From Hydrogenophilaceae bacterium (GTDB taxonomy: Bacteria; Pseudomonadota; Gammaproteobacteria; Burkholderiales; Thiobacillaceae): 64,000 bases of DNA. The stretch is taken from NCBI GenBank assembly GCA_024709485.1, contig JANJWO010000028.1, positions 1-64,000 on the forward strand, in the 5' to 3' direction. Both the position numbers and the translations under genes were made by a program. The notes below the pieces were generated by a model, which saw nothing but the letters and a program-made list of their open reading frames with translations, was not told the origin of the DNA and did no database searches. This document shows positions 29,378 through 50,902 of the stretch, piece by piece; the stretch's first letter is position 1, and every line of letters starts with the position of its first letter.

Positions 29378-30667
29378 TCAGCGCGCGGCGGCGGACAGTC
29401 TTTTCTCGGGCGCGAAGGCGGCGTCCTGCGCCGGATCGAGAATGCGGTCGCCGCGGGCGTCGCGGATGCGCGTCACCAGCCCCATGCGGTTCATGCGCGC
29501 GATGAAGGGCGCCGGGTCGAGTTCCTCCACGTTGGCCATTTCGCCGATGTCCCAGGTGCCTTCGGCAATCAGCATGGCCGCCGCCACCGCCGGCACGCCC
29601 GCGGTGTAGGAAATCGCCTGGCTGCCCACTTCCTCGAAGCTCGCCCGGTGATCGCAGAGGTTGTAGAGGAGGACTTCACGCGCTTGCCCGTCCTTGGTCC
29701 CCTTGACGAGGTCGCCGATGCAGGTTTGGCCGCTATAGCCGGGCGCCAGCGAGGCGGGGTCGGGGAGCACGGCCTTGACGACCTCCAGCGGCACCACTTC
29801 CTGGCCACGCGCCGTGCGCACCGGCTGTTCGGACAGCAGCCCCAGGCGCTTCAGCACGGTGAAGACGTTGATGTAGTGCTCGCTGAATCCCATCCAGAAG
29901 CGGATGTCGGGGATGCCGAGGTTCTGCGACAGGGAGTGGATTTCATCGTGGCCGGTGAGGTAGGTGGTGTGCTTGCCCACCACCGGCAGATCCCACTCCT
30001 TGCGGCGCTCGAACATGGCGTTGGCTTTCCAGGCGCTGTTTTCCCACGACCACACGGTCGCCACGAATTCGCGGAAGTTGATCTCGGGATCGAAGTTGGT
30101 CGCGAAGTAACGCCCGTGGCTGCCGGCGTTCACGTCGATGATGTCGAGGGATTCGATCTTGTCGAAACAGTGGTCCAGCGCATAGCGCGCATAGGCGTTG
30201 ACGACGCCCGGATCGAAGCCGGCGCCCAGCACCGCGGTCACGCCGGCCTGCTTGCAGGCCGCACGCCGTTTCCACTCGTAGTTGGCGTACCAGGGCGGCG
30301 TTTCGCAGACCTTGCGCGGGTCCTCGTGGATGGCGGTGTCGAGATAGGCGGCGCCGCTCTCGATGCAGGCCGCCAGCACCGACATGTTCAGGAACGGCGA
30401 GCCGACGTTGATCACGATGCGGCTGCCGGTCTCGCGGATCAGCCGGCTGGTTGCGGCGACATCCATGGCATCCAGCGCGTGGGCGCGGAGCACGCCGGGC
30501 TGCTGCAGGCTGCCTTTCTCGCCGATCGAGGCGATGATGGCCTGGCACTTGGCGAGCGTGCGCGAGGCAATGTGAATGTCGCCAAGCAGGGCATTGTTCT
30601 GCGCGCATTTGTGCGCCACCACGTGCGCCACGCCACCCGCGCCGATGATCAGGACATTGCGTTTCAT
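29378..30667 (-). CDS. Carboxynorspermidine/saccharopine dehydrogenase-family protein
   Basis: NAD(P)-dependent enzyme of 429 residues, probably making carboxynorspermidine or carboxyspermidine from a diamine and aspartate semialdehyde. The Rossmann motif GAGGVAHVVAHKCAQN is at residues 9-24, followed by SRTLAKCQ and INVGSPFLN. GAGFDPGVVNAYARYA and the middle segment FATNFDPEINFREF match the saccharopine dehydrogenase-like CANSDH group. A strong AGGAGG precedes the ATG. It lies 38 bases downstream of nspC, its pathway partner, which favours the polyamine over the lysine assignment. Confidence 0.9.
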   Translation of the reverse strand: MKRNVLIIGAGGVAHVVAHKCAQNNALLGDIHIASRTLAKCQAIIASIGEKGSLQQPGVLRAHALDAMDVAATSRLIRETGSRIVINVGSPFLNMSVLAACIESGAAYLDTAIHEDPRKVCETPPWYANYEWKRRAACKQAGVTAVLGAGFDPGVVNAYARYALDHCFDKIESLDIIDVNAGSHGRYFATNFDPEINFREFVATVWSWENSAWKANAMFERRKEWDLPVVGKHTTYLTGHDEIHSLSQNLGIPDIRFWMGFSEHYINVFTVLKRLGLLSEQPVRTARGQEVVPLEVVKAVLPDPASLAPGYSGQTCIGDLVKGTKDGQAREVLLYNLCDHRASFEEVGSQAISYTAGVPAVAAAMLIAEGTWDIGEMANVEELDPAPFIARMNRMGLVTRIRDARGDRILDPAQDAAFAPEKRLSAAAR

Positions 30668-30705: not shown

Positions 30706-31803
30706 TCAGGACAGGCTGCCGACGTAGTCGGCATAGGAAAATTCGCGCATCACGCGCACGCTGCCGTCGAACTCCCTGACGGCGATGGCCGGCATGTGGA
30801 TGCCGTTGAACCAGTTCTTCTTGACCATGGTGTAGCCGCCGGCGTCGCCGATGGAAATGCGGTCGCCGATCTGCAGCGGGCGCTCGAAGCGGGCCTCGCC
30901 GAAGATGTCGCCGGCCAGGCAGGTCTTGCCACAGATCTGGTAGAGGTGATCGCCCTCGCCCTGGCCGATCGGCGCGGTCTCGCGGTAGATCAGCAGATCG
31001 AGCATGTGCGCTTCGGTCGAGCTGTCCACCACGGCCAGATGCTTGCCGTTGAAGCCGACATCCAGCACGCTCACCTCCAGCGTCGTGGTGTGGCGCACCG
31101 CGGCTTCGCCCGGCTCCAGATAGACCTGCACGCCGTGGGTTTCGGCGAAGCGGCGCAGGCGCTCGCAAAAGCGGTCGAGCGGGTAGCCGGGGTCGGTGAA
31201 ACTGATGCCGCCGCCGAGGCTGACCCAGTCGAGCCGGCGCAGGATGTCGCCATAGCGCCGCTCGACCTCGGCCAGCAGCGCATCGAAGCGCTCGAAATCG
31301 CTGTTCTCGCAGTTGTTGTGGATCATCACGCCATCGATGCGGTCGACCACGGACGCGATGCGCGCAGGGTCGGGCTCGCCCAGCCGGCTGAAGGCGCGCG
31401 CCGGATCGGCGAGATCGAAGCCGGCGCAGCTGATGCCGGGATTCAGGCGCAGCCCCTTGGGTTTGTCGCCGGCAAAGGACGCGAAGCGCTGCAGCTGGCT
31501 GATCGAGTTGAAAATGATCTTGTCGCAGTGGGCGACGACCGCCTCGATTTCATGATCGGCGAAGGCGACGCTGTAGGCGTGGGTCTCGCCGCCGAATTTC
31601 TCGCGCCCGAGCCTGACCTCATACAGGGAAGAGGAGGTGGTGCCGTCCATGTGCGGGCGCATGCAATCGAACACCGACCAGGCGGCGAAGCATTTCAGCG
31701 CCAGCAGGACCTTGACGCCGGCGCGTTCGCGCACCTGGTCGATGATCTGCAGGTTGCGCAGCAGGGCCGGTTTGTCGATCAGGTAATGGGGGGTTGGAAT
31801 CAT
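30706..31803 (-). CDS. nspC: Carboxynorspermidine decarboxylase NspC
   Basis: PLP-dependent decarboxylase of 365 residues, turning carboxynorspermidine or carboxyspermidine into the polyamine. The PLP lysine is in VLLALKCFA (about Lys37). SLGGGISFTDPGYPLD and LEPGEAAVRH form the glycine-rich and phosphate-binding elements of the alanine racemase-like fold. The second active site segment ICGKTCLAGDIFGE carries the catalytic cysteine. In the sequence as given, the frame continues without a stop into an upstream HTH domain up to 32175. The ATG at 31803 starts the decarboxylase fold (MIPTPHYLIDK), matches the family start, and overlaps the stop of the HTH gene if the nine-A run is read with one fewer base. 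Confidence 0.9.
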   Translation of the reverse strand: MIPTPHYLIDKPALLRNLQIIDQVRERAGVKVLLALKCFAAWSVFDCMRPHMDGTTSSSLYEVRLGREKFGGETHAYSVAFADHEIEAVVAHCDKIIFNSISQLQRFASFAGDKPKGLRLNPGISCAGFDLADPARAFSRLGEPDPARIASVVDRIDGVMIHNNCENSDFERFDALLAEVERRYGDILRRLDWVSLGGGISFTDPGYPLDRFCERLRRFAETHGVQVYLEPGEAAVRHTTTLEVSVLDVGFNGKHLAVVDSSTEAHMLDLLIYRETAPIGQGEGDHLYQICGKTCLAGDIFGEARFERPLQIGDRISIGDAGGYTMVKKNWFNGIHMPAIAVREFDGSVRVMREFSYADYVGSLS

Positions 31804-32175
31804 GTCTCTAAATCGGGAGTCGGGGAGGGGTTGCGTTCGGCCTCGTTGCGGCGGCGCTTCTTGGCCTTTTTTTTTCTTGCCGCCGGCGGGGTTGATGCGC
31901 ACCGGCGGCTGGCCGGGGAAAGTCGCCACCAGCGCCAGCCGGCCGCCCACGCTCTCGACGTATTGCCGCAAGGTGGACAACAGCATGTCGCTGCGTTTTT
32001 CGAGCCGGGAAATCGTGTCCTGGCCGACGGCAAGGGCAAGCGCCAGCTCCTCCTGCGTGTGCCCGGCGCGCTTGCGCAAATCCTTCAGGGTGAGCAGCGG
32101 CGCGGCGTCCACCGCCACGAGCGGGTCGTGCTCGGCGCGACGCGCGGTGGCGTCGGCGGCCGTTTTTCTTGCCAT
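31800..32175 (-). CDS. XRE-family HTH regulator (HigA-like), apparently fused to nspC through an A9 run
   Basis: Small DNA-binding protein with an HTH at about residues 28-62 (LTLKDLRKRAGHTQEELALALAVGQDTISRLEK), followed by LLSTLRQYVESVGGRLALVATFPGQPPVRI. It resembles antitoxin-like XRE proteins controlling small operons. In the given sequence it reads straight into NspC (489 residues, 30706-32175). The junction is a run of nine A residues on the coding strand (31875-31867). With eight or eleven A residues the protein would instead end in a basic tail (KKAKKRRRNEAER) at a TGA overlapping the nspC ATG. Either a homopolymer sequencing error or transcriptional slippage is likely. The upstream palindrome supports autoregulation. 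Confidence 0.75.
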
Positions 32176-32208: not shown

Positions 32209-32237
32209 ATTATGGCTTAAAAACCATATGTAGTAAA
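32209..32237 (-). promoter_or_regulatory. Promoter and overlapping operator for the HTH-nspC operon
   Basis: On the minus strand TTTACT (32237-32232) and CATAAT (32214-32209) are separated by 17 bases, a plausible sigma-70 promoter 34 bases before the HTH gene. The inverted repeat TATGG-N8-CCATA (32211-32228) covers the spacer and the -10 box, the position expected for repression by the HTH protein itself. The rest of the gap, up to 32469, is GC-rich and shows no gene I can support. Confidence 0.6.
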
Positions 32238-32469
32238 GATCATGGTCGGGGCGCTGCGCGGCGCGGCGCAGGCCGGCGCCGATGGTTCACGCGAGTTGCC
32301 AGCGGCGCAGCTTCGAGGCCTGCGGACGCGCGGGGTAAGGAGGATTTTTCGGCGCGCGGCGCCGAGGTCGAAGTGTTGTGCGGATGCGCCGGATGGGGGC
32401 GTCCTGGCCGCCGCGCGGGCAGGCCAAGGTCGAAGGCCGGGCTCGCGGGCCGAGCCGTGGGTGCGGTGC

Positions 32470-33078
32470 CTAGAGCGGCTCGACCGCGACCAGCTGCGGG
32501 TCGTCGAAGTGGTCGATCAAGATGCGTTTGACCCGCAGTTGCCAGAGTCGGCCGAACTCGGCGCGCTCGTCCGCATTGGCCTCCCCGGCGAGTATTTTCT
32601 GCAACAGCGCCGACATTTCGGGCGACGGCGGCACGGTTCCGGGGTGGTAGGAGACGTCAACGGCCGCGCCGGTGTCGATCCGGGTAAATCTGAGCTGGAC
32701 CTCGCCGCCGACGCCGAACCGCAGCAAATCGCGGCGCCCGTAGCGGCCGCCCAGGCCCTTGAAGCCGCCTTCGCCGGCCGCGCCGGTGATGAGGCTGACG
32801 ACATTGGCGATGACGCCGGTCACGCCATCGTCCTGTTCCGCGCCGAATTCGACGCGGAGGTTGCCGCGCTCGGGCAGGCTGTCCGGATATAGGCGTTCCA
32901 GCGCCTTGCGCGTCATGAGATAGGCGCCCGCCACCGTGGGGCAGGAATGACCGGCGAGCTTCACCGCATCGAGATAGCTGTAGCGCAGCAGGCCGTCGTC
33001 GGATGCGCCGAGAATTTCCGCAAGCGGGTCATATTGGGTGATTCCTTTCACCTCGTCGAAGAATGCCGGGTGGCTCAT
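32470..33078 (-). CDS. FmdE-like domain protein
   Basis: A 202-residue cytoplasmic protein resembling the FmdE family (first named for formylmethanofuran dehydrogenase subunit E), a fold that often binds zinc or haem. The diagnostic stretch is LAGHSCPTVAGAYLMTRKALERLYP near residue 42, followed by RGNLRVEFGAEQDDGVTGVIANVVSLITGAAGEGGFKG. The C-terminal half (LQKILAGEANADERAEFGRLWQLRVKRIL) is helical. Its ATG overlaps the stop of the 12-TM protein gene upstream (ATGA), and it ends the DUF2249-membrane protein-FmdE operon that diverges from nsrR. A role in NO detoxification or haem/metal handling is inferred from that context. Confidence 0.75.
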   Translation of the reverse strand: MSHPAFFDEVKGITQYDPLAEILGASDDGLLRYSYLDAVKLAGHSCPTVAGAYLMTRKALERLYPDSLPERGNLRVEFGAEQDDGVTGVIANVVSLITGAAGEGGFKGLGGRYGRRDLLRFGVGGEVQLRFTRIDTGAAVDVSYHPGTVPPSPEMSALLQKILAGEANADERAEFGRLWQLRVKRILIDHFDDPQLVAVEPL

Positions 33079-48594: not shown

Positions 48595-49338
48595 TCAGCG
48601 GCGGCCGACGCGCAGGAACAGCGGCCACATGAGTTTCAAGGGCGTTGCCGCGTCGCCCCACAGGGGCTGCAGTTCTGCCCTGAGAGCGGGCAGCGGATCG
48701 TCGTTTTTCGCCGCGCGGTAGCGCTTCACCGCCGACCAGGTGGATAGATAATCCAGCAGCCGCGGCAGGTCCCATTGCACCTCGATGCGGAAGGCCGGGG
48801 CGGGGATCGCTTCGAACGGAAACGCCAGCGAGCGGTAGCCGTCGTCGATCCACTGGCGCTCCGGCGGCCACCAGGGGCCGATGGTTGCGCTGTAGAAATG
48901 CTGGAAGATCGCGTCCATCTCGCCGGGCAAATCGAGACGGCCGTAGCCCCACAGCGCCAGCACGCCGCCGGGCTTCAGCACGCGCCGCGCCTCGTCGAAA
49001 AATTTTGGCAGATCGAACCAGTGCGCGGCCTGCGCCACGGTGACGAGGTCGACGCTGCGGTCCTGCAGTCCGCTGGCCTCGGCCGGGGCCACGCGAAAAA
49101 TCACATTGCCGGGGCCGTCGGCATGCGCGATCTGCTCGGCGCTGGCGTCGGTGGCGACGACCTGGGTGAAATGCGGCGCGAGGCCAATCGCGGCCTGGCC
49201 GCTGCCGGTGGCGCAATCCCAGGCTGCCTCGTGTTCTTTGCACAGGCTTGCCAGCCAGGCAAAGAGTTCTGCGGGATAAGTCGGGCGGAACTCGGCGTAG
49301 CGCGCCGCGACAGCGGAGAAGTGATCCTGGAAAGTCAT
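48595..49338 (-). CDS. Class I SAM-dependent methyltransferase
   Basis: A 247-residue cytoplasmic methyltransferase of the type-11 group. Motif I is WDCATGSGQAAIGLAPHFTQVVATDAS (residues 40-66), followed by EASGLQDRSVDLVTVAQAAHWFDLPKFFDEARRVLKPGGVLALWGYG, the motif II-III region. The substrate cannot be told from sequence. Similar proteins are common in many bacteria and fungi and include trans-aconitate- and juvenile-hormone-type enzymes. Its ATG overlaps the ribD stop, making it the last gene of the glyA-nrdR-ribD-linked run. Confidence 0.9.
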   Translation of the reverse strand: MTFQDHFSAVAARYAEFRPTYPAELFAWLASLCKEHEAAWDCATGSGQAAIGLAPHFTQVVATDASAEQIAHADGPGNVIFRVAPAEASGLQDRSVDLVTVAQAAHWFDLPKFFDEARRVLKPGGVLALWGYGRLDLPGEMDAIFQHFYSATIGPWWPPERQWIDDGYRSLAFPFEAIPAPAFRIEVQWDLPRLLDYLSTWSAVKRYRAAKNDDPLPALRAELQPLWGDAATPLKLMWPLFLRVGRR

Positions 49339-50423
49339 TTGCGCCAGGTGAGGCGCAAGTCGCCGCCCAGCATGCGCTGGTCCGTAAGTTTCCAGCTGAG
49401 GCGCTGCTGCATGGAGGCGGGCTCATTGAGATCGAACAGCGGCCTGGCCGCGGTCCCCAGCAAACAGGGCGCGAGGTACTGCACCCATTCGTCCGCGAGT
49501 CCGGCGGCGATGAGCGCGCCGTTCAGGCGCGGACCGGCTTCGGTCATCAGCTCGTTGACGCCTTTCTGCGCCAGGCGCGAGAGCAGGGCATGCAGGTCGA
49601 CCTTGCCGTCGCTGCCCGGCAGGCAGAGGATTTCCGCGCCGGCGGCTTCCAGCGCCGCGGCTTTTTTCGCATCCGGCGCGGCGCAGGCGACGAGGGTTTT
49701 CGCGCCTTGCAGGATCGCGGCATCGGGCGGCGTGCGCAGGCTGGAATCGACGATCACCTTCACCGGCTGGCGCGCCGTGTCGACGCCGCGCACGTTCAGT
49801 TGCGGGTTGTCGGCCAGCACCGTCCCGATGCCGGTGAGGATGGCGCAGGAACGCGCGCGCAGCCGGTGCACGTCGGCGCGCGCCGCGTCGCCGGTGATCC
49901 ATTTCGATTCGCCGGAAGACAGCGCGGTCCGGCCGTCGAGCGAGGACGCGGTCTTGATGCGCAGCAGCGGATGGCCGTAGACCATGCGCTTGAAAAAGCC
50001 GGCATTGAGTGCGCGCGCCTCCGGCTCCAGCAGTCCGCACTGGGCTTCGATGCCGGCGGCCTTGATGCGGGCGAGACCCTGGCCGGAAACATTGGGGTTG
50101 GGGTCTTGCGCCGCGGCGACGACCCTGGCCACGCCGGCGCCGATCAGCGCATCGGCGCAGGGCGGGGTGCGTCCGTGGTGCGCGCAGGGCTCCAGGCTGA
50201 CGTAAGCGGTGGCGCCCTGCGCAGCCATGCCGGCCTGCAGCAGCGCGTGGATTTCCGCGTGCGGCTCGCCGGCTTTCTGGTGCCAGCCTTCGCCGATGAT
50301 TTTCCCGTTTTTCACGATGACGCAGCCGACGCGCGGGTTGGGCGAAGTGCTGTAGAGGCCGCGCGCCGCGAGTTGCAGGGCGCGCGCCATGTGGAGGTGG
50401 TCTTCGGGGGTGAAGCCGCTCAC
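49335..50423 (-). CDS. ribD: Riboflavin biosynthesis bifunctional deaminase/reductase RibD
   Basis: Two-domain enzyme of 362 residues for the second and third steps of riboflavin synthesis. The N-terminal cytidine deaminase-like domain has the zinc site [11 protein letters not shown] and [11 protein letters not shown] (residues 55-87). The C-terminal reductase domain has [38 protein letters not shown], and the late [12 protein letters not shown] and PCLLGT segments. The start is GTG, overlapping the nrdR stop (GTGA). Gene order nrdR-ribD is standard in betaproteobacteria. Confidence 0.97.
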
Positions 50424-50902
50424 TTGAACAGATCGTCCACGCCCGGCGCCGGCGTCTTTTCCAGGTCCTGCAGCACGTCGCGGAAGTCCTCGGTGTCCTG
50501 GAAGCTCTTGTAGACCGAGGCGAAGCGGATGTAGGCCACCTTGTCCAGGCGCTTCAATTCATTCATCACCAGTTCGCCCAGCTGGCGCGAAGGGATTTCG
50601 CGCTCGCCCAGCGCCAGCAGCTTCTGGCGGATGCGCTGGACGGCTTCGTCCACCAGTTCGGTCGGCACCGGCCGCTTGTGCAGGGCGCGGCGGAAACCTT
50701 CGTGCAGCTTGGCCTCGGAAAATTCCTCGCGCGTGCCGTTGCTTTTCACGATCAGCGGCATGCGGATGTCGGCGGTCTCGAAGGTGGTGAAGCGCTTTTC
50801 GCATTCCGGACAGCGCCGGCGGCGGCGGATGCTGTCGCCGGATTCATTCACCCGCGAGTCGATGACCTGGGTGTCGGGATGGCCGCAGAAGGGGCATTTC
50901 AT
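50420..50902 (-). CDS. nrdR: Transcriptional repressor NrdR
   Basis: Zinc-finger/ATP-cone repressor of ribonucleotide reductase operons, 160 residues. The zinc ribbon is [40 protein letters not shown] (residues 3-42), followed by an ATP-cone ([33 protein letters not shown]) that senses dATP/ATP. It would be expected to act on nrd promoters. A clear NrdR box was not seen upstream of nrdD in this window, though the search was by eye. It lies downstream of glyA across a repetitive hairpin. Confidence 0.97.

Follow-up and report, generated by a model that had tools for sequence, protein, structure and literature searches.

An antitoxin-like HTH regulator heading an nspC-casdh operon, with an in-frame fusion at a nine-A run in one draft genome

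In the 64-kb window (the whole stretch of DNA that was analyzed, 64,000 nucleotides), three genes lie on the minus strand in the order HTH, nspC and casdh. We propose that they form a single unit, that the HTH protein is a relative of HigA-type antitoxins which has no toxin and would repress its own operon, that HTH and nspC are normally separate genes coupled in translation, and that the run of nine A residues (A9) fusing them in this assembly is an accident. This reading as a whole is held with high confidence. The operon itself was found in Thiobacillaceae and in Alcaligenaceae/Burkholderiaceae; the fusion is known from this assembly alone and is probably incidental. The features of the locus are as follows.

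29378..30667, minus strand: casdh, carboxynorspermidine synthase / carboxyspermidine dehydrogenase-like (NF043000, Pfam)
30706..31803, minus strand: nspC, carboxynorspermidine (or carboxyspermidine) decarboxylase-like, 365 aa (TIGR01047)
31800..31803, minus strand: ATGA, the HTH stop of the A8 frame (TGA 31802-31800) over the nspC ATG (31803-31801)
31800..31866, minus strand: from the HTH tail to the junction; AKKRRRNEAERNPSPTPDLET-stop in the A8 reading, the linker GQEAPPQRGRTQPLPDSRFRD in the A9 reading
31808..31810, minus strand: TAG closing the third frame (A7/A10), 4 nt ahead of the nspC ATG
31867..31875, minus strand: A9 on the coding strand, the frame-setting run (sequence, script, homopolymer census)
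31876..32175, minus strand: HTH (Xre-type) regulator gene, the conserved portion as far as the A run (Pfam, solved chains, homologs)
32209..32230, minus strand: putative promoter-operator CATATGGTTTTTAAGCCATAAT, upstream of HTH (pattern searches)
32231..32246, minus strand: possible third half-site with ACCATG at the upstream end, 16 nt upstream and in register (by eye)
32470-33078, minus strand: FmdE-like gene, upstream of HTH
beyond casdh, plus strand: nitronate monooxygenase-like gene

The nspC product, scanned inside the fused ORF, matched TIGR01047 over nearly its whole length (E-value 1.9e-117; 392 bits against a cut-off of 409), and its conservation in relatives begins near the ATG. The casdh product matched NF043000 (E-value 6e-133; 444 bits against a cut-off of 800) and contains Pfam Sacchrp_dh domains. 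As both are below the NCBIfam cut-offs, the decarboxylase is described here as NspC-like, and the polyamine made would belong to either the norspermidine or the spermidine branch. The order HTH-nspC-casdh is conserved, with casdh after nspC in 12/12 loci (the window and 11 relatives) and casdh identities of about 74-83 % in the relatives. No such HTH match was found at 87 of the 98 nspC loci scanned, some of which have short flanks.

The run at 31867-31875 is T9 on the plus strand, that is, A9 on the coding (minus) strand. A sequence-only reading of this DNA had described one open frame running through it, and the frame was present as described (ORF 30706..32175, minus strand, 489 aa, HTH followed by KKKK and then NspC). 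The product it had predicted for one A fewer was also reproduced when a script rewrote the run length and nothing else: A6, A9 and A12 gave the HTH-NspC fusion, A8 or A11 an HTH tail ending ...AKKRRRNEAERNPSPTPDLET at a stop, and A7 or A10 a third HTH tail ending ...PPRLPI. Since every tail frame either stops no more than 4 nt from the nspC ATG or enters nspC, the fusion would be tolerable. Judging from these stop positions, no run-length frame clearly cuts nspC off from incoming ribosomes; the effect of a one-base change at the run is probably mild, and NspC is probably still made despite A9.

The junction was then compared with relatives. An HTH search of 61 genomes gave matches in 13, including the genus mates G002 and G003. 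When named genomes were scanned, 590 nspC-like stretches were obtained, and among the best 80 the HTH was located just upstream of nspC in eight (L018-L025: a Thiobacillus MAG, three Pusillimonas, Lautropia, Yanghanlia, Advenella and an Alcaligenaceae MAG). The 11 relatives with the gene pair are thus G002, G003, L018-L025 and L177 (in G299). In 11/11 the HTH has its own stop at -4 to +15 nt from the nspC start (L177, +6, by eye), a spacing typical of translational coupling, and in several of them HTH and nspC are in a common frame yet parted by a stop. The sequence-only reading had taken separate genes overlapping at ATGA to be the usual state, and this was upheld: none of the 11 relatives is fused, and the ATGA overlap recurs in one of them. 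In L018 (the Thiobacillus MAG), the HTH ends ...NPDKT with the TGA within ATGA, which matches the A8 reading of the window. The window itself has the coupling geometry only when the run is not divisible by three (A7, A8, A10, A11).

The HTH tails were also compared. The A8 frame gives KAKKRRR, and over broken A runs G002 has KAKKRRR and G003 has KVKKRSR. Against G002 and G003, 1 and 0 of 1000 shuffles scored as well as the A8 tail, whereas 222 and 67 of 1000 scored as well as the A9 linker. Against L018 and L020 the A8 tail is not favoured (191 and 62 of 1000 shuffles), and the A9 linker has a good score against L020 (17 of 1000). Among the matches listed from draws of 399 and 369 genomes, which overlap (matches in 112 and 121 genomes, no more than 3-4 candidate places scored per genome), a fusion spanning both proteins in a stop-free single frame was seen only in the focal genome. 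In G299 (L177) the match covers both proteins with one TGA inside. The junction pattern, with any run length, was not found in a pattern scan of viral contigs.

Judged by the sequences compared, A9 is a one-base gain confined to this assembly among these genomes, and the unfused form is ancestral. We infer that HTH and nspC normally give two proteins, with HTH translation ending at or next to the nspC start, and that nspC would be translated by coupling to HTH, for which the architecture is taken from the relatives. The extra base would lie in a lysine-rich tail, either by a natural slip or by a consensus error, and the fusion would be accidental. In the HTH genes of L017 and L019 we also observed eight consecutive A residues, in frame, within the N-terminal coding part, so lysine codons repeatedly give rise to long A runs in this HTH family.

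The sequence-only reading had further suggested that one gene could give both a free repressor and a repressor-enzyme fusion. In a programmed form of this, selection would keep the run for the sake of slippage. The geometry permits it, and there is a precedent in C. rodentium tssM1, where two length variants come out of one poly-A gene (PMC4256274). A run length conserved among homologs is a sign of purposeful slippage (PMC1088944), and no conserved slippery run was found in the 11 relatives, all of which lack the run of nine and have 3-7 as their longest A/T run over the tail and junction. In addition, the nspC frame is closed by a stop 9-21 nt before the start in 8/11 (L017, L020-L025 and L177), so that an upstream slip cannot yield the fusion there. 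Programmed slippage was rejected for the unconserved run, and we consider it very improbable. If A9 is real, accidental slippage on it is likely; as single-base insertions prevail in homopolymer runs of E. coli and Buchnera transcripts (PMC5574713), such slippage would add the A10 tail and not the native A8 tail. Iterated AAA codons, too, cause ribosome sliding (PMC4363877). A phase-variable contingency switch, by which a change of run length would toggle nspC on and off, would agree with a homopolymer within the coding region of a regulator, but it has no evident off frame (TGA on the ATG, TAG 4 nt before it, or the in-frame fusion). It was rejected for that lack and is given almost no probability.

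The focal run is the sole homopolymer of at least nine in the window. The draft genome (2.54 Mb in 77 contigs, 83 % complete) has 11 distinct A/T sites of at least nine, including two that lie at a contig end or no more than 20 nt from one; by eye, and not from annotation, the other eight internal sites were assigned to structures resembling hairpin-T terminators (five) and to intergenic DNA (three). Of the nine internal sites, the focal run alone was judged intragenic. Several contigs of the draft start or finish in homopolymers. Contigs C12, C17, C47 and C57 of G000 start or finish in long G/C runs, which suggests short reads with two-colour chemistry.

For runs of eight A, 33 sites were counted, 30 were fetched, covering ORFs were listed for 15, and 10 were given to Pfam. 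The frame was intact in three genes with A8 inside a domain (MotA, TatD, AcrB-type) and in one ORF with A8 between its two domains (tRNA uracil-methyltransferase); two ORFs have A8 at or ahead of the domain start (GidB, trypsin/PDZ), and the remaining four had no Pfam match and were uninformative. Since A8 keeps the frame in four other genes, homopolymer errors do not appear to be rampant. A frame census was also made, in which 45 ORFs of G002 (48 kb) and 8 ORFs of G003 were compared with the contig. Six split ORFs were flagged (four for G002 against the contig, two in reverse and none with G003), one of which is the focal site. The other five are, by eye, stop-to-stop ORFs entering a neighbour gene in a different frame. 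Two of these are at the border between nspC and casdh and one is at 49337-50558, all three judged from coordinates, and two lie beside intact genes. No further broken gene was judged to be present in the 48 kb compared with G002 ORFs. Codon-usage scoring of the flanks was dropped, as the known HTH frame was not recovered.

Consensus error and natural slip are two sub-cases of the proposed explanation and are about equal in weight. If A9 is an error of the draft consensus, the run is A8 in the organism and the two genes are an ordinary coupled pair; this agrees with the unfused state of 11/11 relatives, and with the fact that A8 brings back the conserved tail and the ATGA overlap as in L018, in a fragmentary draft with homopolymers at several contig ends. 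An error is harder to reconcile with the four genes in which A8 is in frame, with the genes compared with G002, which have no other frame break, and with the general experience that a short-read consensus of nine A is usually correct. We put it slightly short of an even chance. If A9 is instead a real and recent slip in the strain or in part of the population, the HTH-NspC fusion would be the main product, and accidental slippage of RNA polymerase or the ribosome would yield some free HTH. As the assembly itself reads A9, and A8 is correctly in frame in four other genes, A9 may be real, in which case this strain would actually make the fusion. nspC is reachable from all three frames, and the compared part of the assembly is otherwise frame-clean. 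No relative is in the A9 fused state, which speaks against a real slip. Slippage on A9 is reported for T. thermophilus dnaX, and a large share of bacterial genomes show selection against slippage once runs reach nine A (PMC1088944). This sub-case, too, is placed just below the halfway mark.

Upstream of HTH, CATATGGTTTTTAAGCCATAAT overlaps what appears by eye to be the promoter, with CATAAT as -10, TTTACT (32232-32237) as -35 and a spacer of 17 nt. At one mismatch, 0.09 chance matches are expected in the window, and a search of the complete draft with a related, looser pattern gave a single further match, which is poorer. The strict form CATAT[G/T]-N10-CATA was found ahead of 12/12 HTH-nspC operons (0.005 loci expected from Markov samples) and ahead of the toxin in 8/11 toxin-HTH modules (0.015 expected, Markov; looser form in 11/11; L201, which has no toxin, left out), counts that are partly circular as the pattern was set after viewing the operon and module sequences. 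It was found in 0/72 nspC loci without an HTH match, among which L060 has just 181 nt upstream. Out of sample, the strict form lies no more than 700 nt upstream in 7 of 14 loci fetched later, against 0.015 expected; those without it are L227-L230, which have the most distant toxins, and L218, L221 and L224.

The possible third half-site is stronger (AATATG/GATATG) in several relatives. A third TATG half-site 16 nt upstream and in register was noted in L021, L023, L025, L177, L199, L202 and L226, which gives the operator the look of a pair of dimer sites that overlap. Most likely, the HTH protein would bind the near-palindromic CATATG-N10-CATAAT overlapping the promoter and repress its own operon, thereby setting polyamine synthesis.

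The HTH protein matched Pfam HTH_31 (8.4e-7) and HTH_3 (2.1e-6), and the nearest solved chains by sequence are the antitoxin HigA3 (6lty; 1.6e-5) and an Xre antitoxin (4pu3; 0.0042). The NCBIfam antitoxin models were matched solely below cut-off. With tblastn, the HTH core was 57-72 % identical to 12 nspC-less HTH proteins of the order, 11 of which are encoded directly behind a Gp49-type toxin gene (the exception is L201). Pfam, PDB and tblastn results are thus all those of an antitoxin-related Xre/HTH DNA-binding protein. When five of the upstream ORFs were given to Pfam, four were Gp49 (PF05973) and that of L201 was not. Pfam labels this toxin Gp49, and such pairs are named HigBA. A toxin match was found in 3 of four more distant HTH loci, and a Gp49-type toxin in 11 of 14 further HTH loci. 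No Gp49 toxin match was found in 12/12 HTH-nspC loci or within the 64-kb window, so the adjacent cognate toxin of a HigBA-type antitoxin is missing. In the HTH tree, the 12 operon HTHs are on one side of a weakly supported branch (55/77), seen in 48 % of bootstraps, so a single capture and its direction are at most suggested by it.

Because the operator is common to TA loci, a joint takeover of regulator and operator from a TA module is the most likely origin, as far as can be told from sequence. That this TA control unit (repressor and operator) was captured by a polyamine operon is considered probable. A more speculative extension has NspC in the place of the toxin, perhaps as a regulatory partner of HTH; a real A9 would join both and slippage would free the repressor, so that the fusion would function as a DNA-binding polyamine enzyme. 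We consider this improbable. A further lone HTH of the family was observed at L222:1129-1503 (G530). The strict operator precedes it, no toxin was matched there and the next ORF is convergent; it is an orphan with an operator, and no captured genes were seen.

Among genomes of the window's genus, nspC was found in 3/9 and was not found in two that are about 96 % complete. Given this patchy occurrence and the close kin that Alcaligenaceae carry, the cassette may be mobile from one family to another. No description of the HTH-nspC-casdh arrangement was recognised in the open-licence literature searched. We regard the surrounding operon as mattering more than the fusion, and annotation of the latter as a new enzyme-repressor is unwarranted without read or protein support. 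The operon is a sequence-level case of a toxin-less, antitoxin-like repressor that has kept its own operator and heads a metabolic operon, and it allows a direct test of the idea that an antitoxin left without its toxin turns into an ordinary regulator.

Several known systems resemble the locus in part. Genes with poly-A slippage (T. thermophilus dnaX with A9, C. rodentium tssM1 with A11, and IS elements) share with it a long coding A run and alternative ends; here, however, the run is unconserved among homologs and is known from DNA alone. nspC of V. cholerae and casdh of S. meliloti are known genes of the carboxynorspermidine/carboxyspermidine pathway, and the same two enzyme families adjoin here but are headed by an HTH that resembles an antitoxin and has an operator of the TA type. 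HigBA-type modules have a related HTH and, in most, the same CATAT[GT]-N10-CATA promoter-operator, but they have a toxin, where here the regulator heads nspC-casdh instead. MqsA of E. coli is likewise a TA-type repressor acting on non-TA genes (PMC4803016); unlike MqsA, the regulator described here would have its likely targets in its own operon, from which the toxin is missing.
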